Virus record (IMG/VR): IMGVR_UViG_3300030101_002662
Coordinates: 1-20,428 of that record
DNA: 20,428 nucleotides
Direction: 5' to 3' (one strand)
Origin: a virus
Part shown: in pieces, positions 3,557-5,494 of the stretch
Position numbering within the stretch: the first letter of the stretch is position 1
How the letters are laid out: each line of letters begins with the position of its first letter
Made by a program: the position numbers and the translations under genes
Notes under the pieces: model-generated
Databases searched by the model: none
What the model saw: only the letters and a program-made list of their open reading frames with translations
What the model was told of the DNA's origin: nothing

Positions 3557-3766
3557 ATGTCACACTTTAAATTATCAAAAAATGAGATAGACTTATTCGT
3601 AAGAAGTATGAAATCTTATAGAAAAAAATTAGATGAGGATCACCCGAATGACTATCCATATGTGCATCCGATATCAAAAGAAAAAAGATATTTGGATTTA
3701 ACAATTGGTAAACTGGAGAATGAACTTAAAACAAGATCAATGCGACCACATAAGGTAACATCATGA
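3557..3766 (+). CDS. Hypothetical small basic phage protein, 69 aa
   Basis: Starts immediately after the previous stop, with AAAGGT at 3544-3549 as ribosome binding site, and ends in an ATGA overlap with the methyltransferase start. It is rich in Lys and Arg and probably helical at both ends, with a Pro-Tyr rich turn (HPNDYPYVHP, residues about 29-38) between them. No known domain. Because it is translationally linked to the methyltransferase it may be co-expressed, but nothing shows a shared function. Confidence 0.75.
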   Translation: MSHFKLSKNEIDLFVRSMKSYRKKLDEDHPNDYPYVHPISKEKRYLDLTIGKLENELKTRSMRPHKVTS

Positions 3767-4734
3767 AACTTAGACACTTTGATGTCTGCTCGGGAATCGG
3801 GGGTTTTGCCCTCGGTTTTCGTTGGGCAGCACTTTCAGAACCTGTGGCTTTTTGTGAGATAGACCCGTATTGTCAAAAGGTTTTAGCAAAAAATTTCCCG
3901 AATATCCCGATATTTAATGACGTAAAGGAGTTAGTCAATGAAAAAACCAAACCCGAATCAACCCGAACTATTCCCGACCACGACATCCTCACCGCTGGAT
4001 ACCCATGTCAGCCGTTCAGCGTGGCGGGCAAACGGAGAGGCGAGGAAGATCCGAGAAACATCTGGCCTTACGTGTATGAGATTGTTAAAAGAAAACACCC
4101 CACTTGGTGTGTTTTCGAGAACGTTTATGGTCACGTTGCCATGGGACTCGACAAGGTGCTTAACGAAATGGAAATGGAAGGGTACACCACACAAACGTTT
4201 ATTGTTCCAGCTTGTAGCCTTGATGCACCCCACCTCCGTAATAGACTCTGGATTATTGCACACTCCAACCGCCAAAGCGAATCAACTAGCACCAAGTATG
4301 GTGGAGAGGGACAAGGGGAGTTGGGGCATGTGGCCAACACCCCAAGCACGGGATTGGAAAGACAGTCTGAACACAGTCCCTCCATCAGTTGCAGCGGGGA
4401 GAAGAGGAGCGAGTCTAGGTCAAAAACTAGCCGAGAGAATGCTATGGCCGACACCCAATGCATGGGACGGGAGCCGAGGTCCGAGGAGCGAGAAGAATTT
4501 ACAGGAGAAGAATCACATGGTGAATCTGATCACCGCAGTTCAAACGGATCAGAGGAGGAACGAGCAAGAAACTGGTGGCAGTTTGAACCCAACGTGGGTC
4601 GAGTGGCTTATGGGGTATCCTCAAGGGTGGACAGACTTAGAGGATTAGGAAATGCAATTGTCCCACAAATAGCAATGCAAATAGGACTATCAATAAAGGA
4701 GGCAGTTGAATATGGAAGCAGAAAAAAAGATTAG
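3763..4734 (+). CDS. dcm: DNA (cytosine-5)-methyltransferase, Dcm type
   Basis: This enzyme would transfer a methyl group from S-adenosylmethionine to C5 of cytosine in a specific DNA sequence. Motif I, FDVCSGIGGFALGF, spans residues 6-19. Motif IV, GYPCQPFS, carries the catalytic Cys82; motif VI has Glu-Asn-Val at 119-121; and a motif VIII-like LRNRLW is at 158-163. Motifs IX-X end in RVDRLRGLGNAIVPQIA. At 323 residues it has a usual length for small phage enzymes. Residues about 170-275, where the target-recognition domain belongs, are low in hydrophobics and rich in Ser, Glu and Arg. This part coincides with a second gene in the +1 frame. No restriction partner is visible, so a protective or orphan role is likely. 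The DNA is markedly more GC-rich than its surroundings. Confidence 0.93.
   Translation: MKLRHFDVCSGIGGFALGFRWAALSEPVAFCEIDPYCQKVLAKNFPNIPIFNDVKELVNEKTKPESTRTIPDHDILTAGYPCQPFSVAGKRRGEEDPRNIWPYVYEIVKRKHPTWCVFENVYGHVAMGLDKVLNEMEMEGYTTQTFIVPACSLDAPHLRNRLWIIAHSNRQSESTSTKYGGEGQGELGHVANTPSTGLERQSEHSPSISCSGEKRSESRSKTSRENAMADTQCMGREPRSEEREEFTGEESHGESDHRSSNGSEEERARNWWQFEPNVGRVAYGVSSRVDRLRGLGNAIVPQIAMQIGLSIKEAVEYGSRKKD
3924..3930 (+). promoter_or_regulatory. Internal Shine-Dalgarno for the nested gene
   Basis: AAAGGAG lies inside the methyltransferase coding sequence exactly seven bases before the ATG at 3938 in the +1 frame. The same motif and spacing precede the genes starting at 10003 and 12250. It supports independent translation of the nested frame. 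Confidence 0.7.
3938..4648 (+). CDS. Nested +1-frame gene inside the methyltransferase, 236 aa
   Basis: This frame lies wholly inside the methyltransferase gene yet has its own Shine-Dalgarno (3924-3930) and family-like motifs. Three Pro-Thr-Pro modules appear: HTPTA at residues 108-112, WPTPQARDWKD at 132-142 and WPTPNAWDG at 170-178. A C-terminal block, LNPTWVEWLMGYPQGW, follows at 216-231. A central stretch (SRTFMVTLPWDSTRCLTKWK) matches the style of phage proteins I remember ending in NPxWVEWLMGxPxGW, usually near cytosine methyltransferase genes and sometimes themselves labelled methyltransferase. Its own biochemical function is unknown. In the alternative frame, low GC-related stop density could leave a long frame by chance, but the motifs and start signal argue for a translated protein. 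Confidence 0.72.
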   Translation: MKKPNPNQPELFPTTTSSPLDTHVSRSAWRANGEARKIRETSGLTCMRLLKENTPLGVFSRTFMVTLPWDSTRCLTKWKWKGTPHKRLLFQLVALMHPTSVIDSGLLHTPTAKANQLAPSMVERDKGSWGMWPTPQARDWKDSLNTVPPSVAAGRRGASLGQKLAERMLWPTPNAWDGSRGPRSEKNLQEKNHMVNLITAVQTDQRRNEQETGGSLNPTWVEWLMGYPQGWTDLED

Positions 4735-4867: not shown

Positions 4868-5096
4868 TTTAAGAAATCCAAATTCTTTGGTTTATAAATG
4901 TTCTAAAATTTCAATTTTAGTGCAAAGAGTTAATTACAAAAAAAAGGCTGATTATGATTTTTTTGTAGAGAAGTTGTGTGAGGAAAACGACATAACTGTT
5001 AAACAATTTAAAGATTATGAAAAACAATATTGGGAAAATATAAATAAAGTTAAGGAGGGAGTATTTAATGTTCAAAGCGATAACTTTGATGTGTAG
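4854..5096 (+). CDS. Hypothetical small phage protein, 80 aa
   Basis: The start at 4854 is chosen because GGGAGG at 4839-4844 precedes it by nine bases. The longer in-frame start at 4767 would cover most of the zinc-ribbon gene and has no ribosome binding site. The product is charged, Lys- and Glu-rich and probably helical (YDFFVEKLCEENDITVKQF in its middle). It overlaps the zinc-ribbon gene by 14 bases and the next gene by 29 bases. Function unknown. Confidence 0.72.
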   Translation: MSLDDLRNPNSLVYKCSKISILVQRVNYKKKADYDFFVEKLCEENDITVKQFKDYEKQYWENINKVKEGVFNVQSDNFDV

Positions 5097-5268
5097 CATT
5101 TGGTTTATTAATGGAGAACCAAAACAATCATGCTTCACACATATGTTTAGTTGGGAGTTCCAAACAAAAGAGGAATGTCAATTTAAAATTTTAAATTACT
5201 CAAGATTTGAAATACCAAAGAATCATAAGATTATTTTATCTGAGTGTGTATTGGCCAAGAAATCATAG
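5068..5268 (+). CDS. Four-cysteine small protein, tandem copy 1, 66 aa
   Basis: Preceded by AAGGAGGGA at 5052-5060, seven bases before the ATG. The N-terminus MFKAITLMCSIWF is hydrophobic but short, and there is no convincing signal-peptidase or lipobox site (the residue before Cys9 is Met). Cysteines at 9, 22, 37 and 60 are in the same positions in the next gene. That even spacing suggests either two disulfides in an exported protein or a metal site. The two proteins share about 53% identity over their first 60 residues (my count, 32 of 60), so this is a tandem duplication. Function unknown. Confidence 0.8.
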   Translation: MFKAITLMCSIWFINGEPKQSCFTHMFSWEFQTKEECQFKILNYSRFEIPKNHKIILSECVLAKKS

Positions 5269-5278
5269 GGGAGTATAA

Positions 5279-5494
5279 ATGTTTAAAGCATTAGCACTTG
5301 TATGTAGTGTATGGATTGCAGACGGAAGAGCCAAACAAGAATGTTTTACCCATAAGTTTAAGTGGGAGTTTGAAACTAAGAAAGAATGTCAGATGCGATT
5401 GATTTACTATCAAGCAAAAGAATTACCACATTATCAAAAGATGGTATTAAGTGAGTGTACAAAATTTACTCATCGTTATCGTGATCGTAAATAA
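5279..5494 (+). CDS. Four-cysteine small protein, tandem copy 2, 71 aa
   Basis: Paralog of the gene just upstream, with identical positions for cysteines 9, 22, 37 and 60 and shared blocks such as CFTH, WEF, KxEC and LSEC. The N-terminal MFKALALVCSVW is again hydrophobic. The C-terminal tail is longer and basic (HRYRDRK). AGGGGAG at 5267-5273 is the ribosome binding site. Its last 29 bases overlap, tail to tail, a small gene on the opposite strand (5466-5630). Both copies have stayed open while diverging, which implies both are used. Function unknown. Confidence 0.8.
   Translation: MFKALALVCSVWIADGRAKQECFTHKFKWEFETKKECQMRLIYYQAKELPHYQKMVLSECTKFTHRYRDRK

Follow-up and report, generated by a model that had tools for sequence, protein, structure and literature searches.

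Multispecific phage C5-methyltransferases (SPR, phi3T and H2), the subject of EMBO J papers of 1988 and 1996 cited in PMC8936443 and PMC12707154, reportedly carry several short target-recognising units arranged in tandem, and Lee, Kam and Shaw are said to have found in 1995 that the beta subunit of M.EcoHK31I is encoded within alpha in another frame, with both needed for activity. The larger subunit of M.EcoHK31I holds motifs I-VIII and X and the smaller one motif IX, with the predicted target-recognition domain placed in the larger subunit, and M.AquI consists of two polypeptides, the larger with motifs I-VIII and the smaller with IX-X (PMC3404938). The locus described here lies in virus record IMGVR_UViG_3300030101_002662, of which a stretch of 20,428 bases (the window) was analysed as a whole. 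An alpha gene of 323 aa entirely encloses a beta gene of 236 aa, both with ATG starts, and the offset of 175 nt places beta in the +1 frame (Table 1). A preliminary description had already pointed to a 236-codon gene nested in this frame of a methyltransferase, and its coordinates are exact; AAAGGAG was found where it had been reported, seven bases ahead of the beta ATG, and LNPTWVEWLMGYPQGW is present in beta. Of the three Pro-Thr-Pro blocks that it listed, two are exact (WPTPQARD and WPTPNAWD), whereas the third, LHTPTAKA, is only related.

The window pair shares its motif partition (I-VIII and X in one chain, IX in the other) with M.EcoHK31I and M.EaeI, a likeness drawn from their descriptions, and its beta is nested as the small subunit of M.EcoHK31I reportedly is. 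Since those features of the M.EcoHK31I kind that can be tested were found in the window, the principle is already known, and the most likely role of beta, as judged from sequence, is that of second subunit in a split enzyme of this kind. Recognition in the window apparently lies in beta and in several modules, unlike in M.EcoHK31I, and for the family as a whole the placement in beta proposed here disagrees with the published placement in the larger subunit (PMC3404938). The M.AquI partition recurs in a few of the related loci (L144, L200 and L214), but the window differs from M.AquI in retaining motif X in alpha and in the almost complete overlap of its two genes. The SPR, phi3T and H2 enzymes resemble the window beta, by description, in being phage enzymes with several units in series (in beta, putative recognition modules), but they are single chains read in one frame. 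Plasmid searches for a copy of M.EcoHK31I identified none, and nested pairs in E. coli prophages were found instead (L445, 3366-4127, and L446, 2501-3238); the PCP07014 copy is interrupted by stops in alpha and beta alike, and in PT62 both frames are open. No mention of a nested alpha/beta family was found in the literature on overprinting and frame transitions, nor any description of the family's breadth, its three frame partitions or its modular beta, which is weak evidence given that the literature was covered in part.

We consider it likely that the locus encodes one split C5-methyltransferase, in which a catalytic alpha and a small-domain beta (N domain, target-recognition modules and motif IX) are active together. 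Alpha, in frame 0, would provide the catalytic large domain, with SAM binding, the PCQ loop and motif X, and would lack the small domain. Beta, in the +1 frame, would be initiated independently from its own Shine-Dalgarno sequence inside alpha and would supply this small domain, made up of a conserved N domain, interchangeable target-recognition modules in series and motif IX. Alpha and beta would assemble into an active heterodimeric methyltransferase that may methylate the phage DNA, probably against host restriction; a change of module would change the specificity, and several modules would allow several target sequences.

Table 1. Features of the alpha/beta locus; positions are those of the 20,428-base window.
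Feature	Position	Strand	Evidence
Alpha: catalytic subunit of a C5-cytosine methyltransferase, with motifs I-VIII and X but not IX	3763..4734	+	Pfam, M.HhaI alignment, AF2
Beta: gene nested in the +1 frame, proposed subunit for motif IX and target recognition	3938..4648	+	Homologs, register, permutation, substitution rates
AAAGGAG, putative Shine-Dalgarno sequence of beta, within alpha codons D-V-K-E-L	3924..3930	+	SD-like stretch in 74/88 relatives; Lys AAG 60/60
N domain of beta, over alpha motifs IV-VIII	3938..4252	+	Conserved block in two alignments; constraint in both frames
Beta module 1 (LLHTPTAKANQLAPSMVERDKGSWGM)	4253..4330	+	Other module there in L009, absent in L010
Beta module 2 (WPTPQARDWKD...)	4331..4444	+	Module clustering
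Beta module 3 (WPTPNAWDGSRG...)	4445..4576	+	Module clustering
Putative motif IX, read in the +1 frame (LNPTWVEWLMGYPQGWT)	4583..4633	+	Invariant core; hhalign via in-frame copies to canonical IX-X
Alpha reading of the module DNA: hydrophilic VIII-X linker, predicted disordered, putative beta passenger	4285..4575	+	AF2, substitution rates, module identities
Alpha motif X (LRGLGNAIVPQIAMQIGLSI)	4636..4695	+	Motif mapping, AF2

Alpha matched Pfam PF00145 (DNA_methylase) at 8.9e-42 over residues 4-202 only, and its alignment with M.HhaI was confined to M.HhaI residues 12-173, which span motifs I-VIII. The hallmarks of PF00145 are all present: motifs I, IV (PCQ), VI (ENV) and VIII, together with the large-domain fold. 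An AF2 model was confident for the large domain and the motif X helix, with M.HhaI entries as the best fold matches, but the small domain is missing from it, and residues 175-295 were modelled with low confidence and predicted to be disordered apart from one short helix. Motif mapping did not find motif IX in the alpha frame of the window, and alpha thus lacks the in-frame target-recognition domain and motif IX that a single-chain C5-methyltransferase has between motifs VIII and X.

The unexplained partner of the enzyme suspected in the preliminary description carries, by this analysis, the motif IX that is missing from alpha. The C-terminus of beta, LNPxWVEWLMGxPxGWTDL, is invariant or nearly so among relatives and appears to correspond to canonical motif IX. 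This assignment is made through copies of the motif in 21 relatives, where it stands in alpha's own frame directly ahead of motif X: aligned with canonical IX-X by hhalign, these in-frame copies gave an E-value of 2.5e-4 and a probability of 43% over 44 columns, and the C-terminus of beta itself hit the same site weakly (probability 4%, E 0.01). AF2 modelled beta alone poorly (mean pLDDT 48). Across 307 distinct loci the motifs are partitioned between the frames in three ways, with IX in +1 and X in frame 0 in 272 (the window type), both in frame 0 in 21 and both in +1 in seven, and the modules are in the +1 frame in 549 of 555 cases. The order of the motifs in the DNA is canonical; it is their reading that is divided between two frames.

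The middle of beta is built of units with a median length of 41 aa, each starting with [W/L/F/Y][P/A]TP. A census of 288 betas yielded 700 modules, among which 49 clusters occur in at least three loci, many at varying positions and several in both viruses and bacteria, and the 246 betas with two or more modules show 198 different orders. Like modules are more similar in the beta frame (identity 0.84) than in the alpha frame (0.57), and the beta-frame value is the higher one in 765 of 765 pairs; an alpha-frame stop occurs in only eight of 674 modules. The process of module gain or loss can be seen at work in L009 and L010, the two relatives closest to the window. Their DNA is about 97% identical except for one module, which has about 130 nt (a length divisible by three), is present in L009 only and is in phase in both frames; the window has a different module at this site. 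We infer from these patterns that beta is a target-recognition subunit of modular build whose gene is overprinted on that of the catalytic subunit, and the best reading of the alpha frame under the modules is that of a passenger linker, which would need only to stay open.

One alternative, that beta brings motif IX only and that targets are recognised by the VIII-X region of alpha, would agree with what PMC3404938 states for M.EcoHK31I. We regard it as improbable, as this region is predicted to be disordered and shows the sequence evolution of a passenger carried by beta, and as the modules remain in the +1 frame even where motif IX is in the alpha frame. The three motif partitions also resemble frame exchanges, and alpha stops after motif VIII in L144, L200 and L214, as might be expected if ribosomes shifted from the alpha into the beta frame and made one chain of motifs I-VIII, modules and IX with no separate beta start. 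Such a frameshift is highly improbable, since the conserved start region of beta, its Shine-Dalgarno sequence and its N domain all precede any useful shift site, and in the window type the fused product would be left without motif X.

The best evidence for beta as a subunit of the methyltransferase came from its distribution. Alpha-like genes were sampled from about 1,000 bacterial genomes in four groups, which gave 75 distinct enzymes. In-frame motif IX is lacking in 25 of these (19 found without using beta and six first found through it), and every one of the 25 contains a nested beta; the other 50 have an in-frame motif IX (35 called by pattern and 15 by eye), and none of them contains a nested beta. 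The score cut-offs were unequal (1e-40 in two groups and 1e-25 in two), so these proportions are not natural frequencies. Such strict complementarity argues for a subunit rather than a bystander, and together with the in-frame copies of the beta end motif directly before motif X it makes it very unlikely that beta has a separate function, for example as a regulator or anti-restriction protein carried along with the methyltransferase, although a separate role would fit the fact that no solved structure or function-tested family matches beta. One methyltransferase from the actinobacterial group (L414) has motifs IX and X before motif I, as if circularly permuted, and contains no nested beta.

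Whether two proteins are encoded was examined by permuting codons among synonyms, which kept each protein's sequence and retained alpha's own codon usage. With the alpha codons of the window permuted, the beta frame contained a mean of 4.8 stops and was open in 0.5% of trials; across 79 loci the averages were 6.65 stops and an open fraction of 0.0013, and permutation of the beta codons put 7.8 stops into the alpha frame. Substitution rates at alpha codon positions 1/2/3, which are descriptive because the 209 pairs of relatives are not mutually independent, were.173/.076/.426 in the alpha-only 5' region upstream of the overlap,.151/.065/.194 in the overlap with motifs IV-VIII,.407/.247/.279 in the overlap middle,.180/.075/.060 in the motif IX region and.168/.151/.470 in the alpha-only 3' region past the end of beta. 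Alpha third positions are thus sevenfold slower under the beta end motif, and in the overlap middle the fastest-moving position is the beta wobble; the third-position slowdown indicates that the silent sites of alpha are held by beta. Codon choice is fixed at sites that beta requires: the Arg codon of the alpha motif GRV ends in A in 67 of 67 cases (86/234 elsewhere), the Val codon after this Arg is GTG in 66 of 66 (115/401 elsewhere) and the Lys codon in the Shine-Dalgarno sequence is AAG in 60 of 60 (159/266 elsewhere). A scan of IMG/VR for GRVA...LGNA, made with the alpha motif alone, with no reference to beta and over CGN codons for the Arg, returned seven stretches with CGB for this Arg versus at least 120 with CGA.

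The proposal of the preliminary description that two conserved proteins are overprinted here is supported, and none of the three findings that it named as speaking against this was obtained: the homologs are more than translated methyltransferase genes, being conserved open frames with beta-frame identity above alpha-frame identity in all pairs of like modules; the synonymous sites of the methyltransferase are constrained across the overlap, with third-position rates falling from 0.426 upstream to 0.194 and 0.060 inside; and in practically all of the 88 relatives no stop interrupts the +1 frame along the matched region. These computational tests confirm beta as a genuine gene in the alpha +1 frame, presumably translated. 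That beta is a long shadow frame, open and similar merely through the conservation of alpha, is extremely improbable and was rejected computationally: the stretch is GC-rich, and the same bases read as W-P-T-P in beta and as x-A-D-T in alpha, so that some resemblance is automatic, but synonymous permutation fills the beta frame with stops, alpha third positions slow down in the overlap, synonymous codons are fixed where beta requires them, the module identities favour the beta frame (765/765) and beta is absent from 50 of 50 enzymes with an in-frame motif IX.

Relatives of beta were found in 64 phage records, at least 595 viral-contig stretches and 357 bacterial-genome stretches. Their overlap with alpha is in an identical +1 register in 88 of 88 phage and viral loci (best alpha match) and in 79 of 80 bacterial loci, the loci having been gathered by similarity to beta, so that these counts give the register and not its frequency; in the exceptional bacterial locus, L144, alpha ends after motif VIII and beta continues. 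The overlap with a methyltransferase in one shared register is what the preliminary description had suggested looking for, and its remark that such proteins occur near phage methyltransferases and are annotated as methyltransferases was right, as seen in phage records and in phrog_1008, which beta matched at 1.1e-28. Beta matched no Pfam or NCBIfam family, and searches of PDB sequences with beta and its modules returned chance hits only, with no solved structure matched. In Paenibacillus phage Lily the homologous nested frame is recorded as 'g62 internal gene'; two overlapping methyltransferases are listed in other Paenibacillus phages. Like beta, the phrog_1008 members and the Lily gene are homologous nested frames, annotated as methyltransferase or hypothetical protein, but their records state no subunit role or mechanism, unlike the reading given here. 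A marine phage record (L004, KT997847.1, 1794-2630) has alpha broken over two frames, and the annotation of putative cytosine-specific methyltransferase is given to beta. Five alpha/beta loci with equal scores lie on one chromosome of an uncultured Roseovarius (OX638333.1, L105-L109), as if in several near-identical prophages.

The nested alpha/beta arrangement occurs in many phages and bacteria but is seldom recognised. Many supposed single-chain cytosine methyltransferase genes would then be half enzymes, the other half being unannotated or mislabelled. It is plausible, and in our judgement slightly favoured, that these loci form a widespread class of C5-methyltransferase whose specificity lies in a separate overprinted subunit drawn from a shared library of dual-open modules of about 40 aa, which would be acquired, lost and rearranged by phages and bacteria alike, with changes of target, while the catalytic frame serves as a disordered linker. 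Being long, conserved in phages and in several bacterial phyla, and represented by hundreds of natural variants, this same-strand overlap is very well suited to studying how DNA is shared by two proteins. Should the modules serve in target recognition, every natural variant would directly test the match between a module and the DNA sequence that it reads. Downstream of the methyltransferase, the window also contains two tandem small paralogs on the + strand (5068-5268 and 5279-5494; MFKA..CS.W..G..KQ.CFTH.F.WEF.TK.EC).
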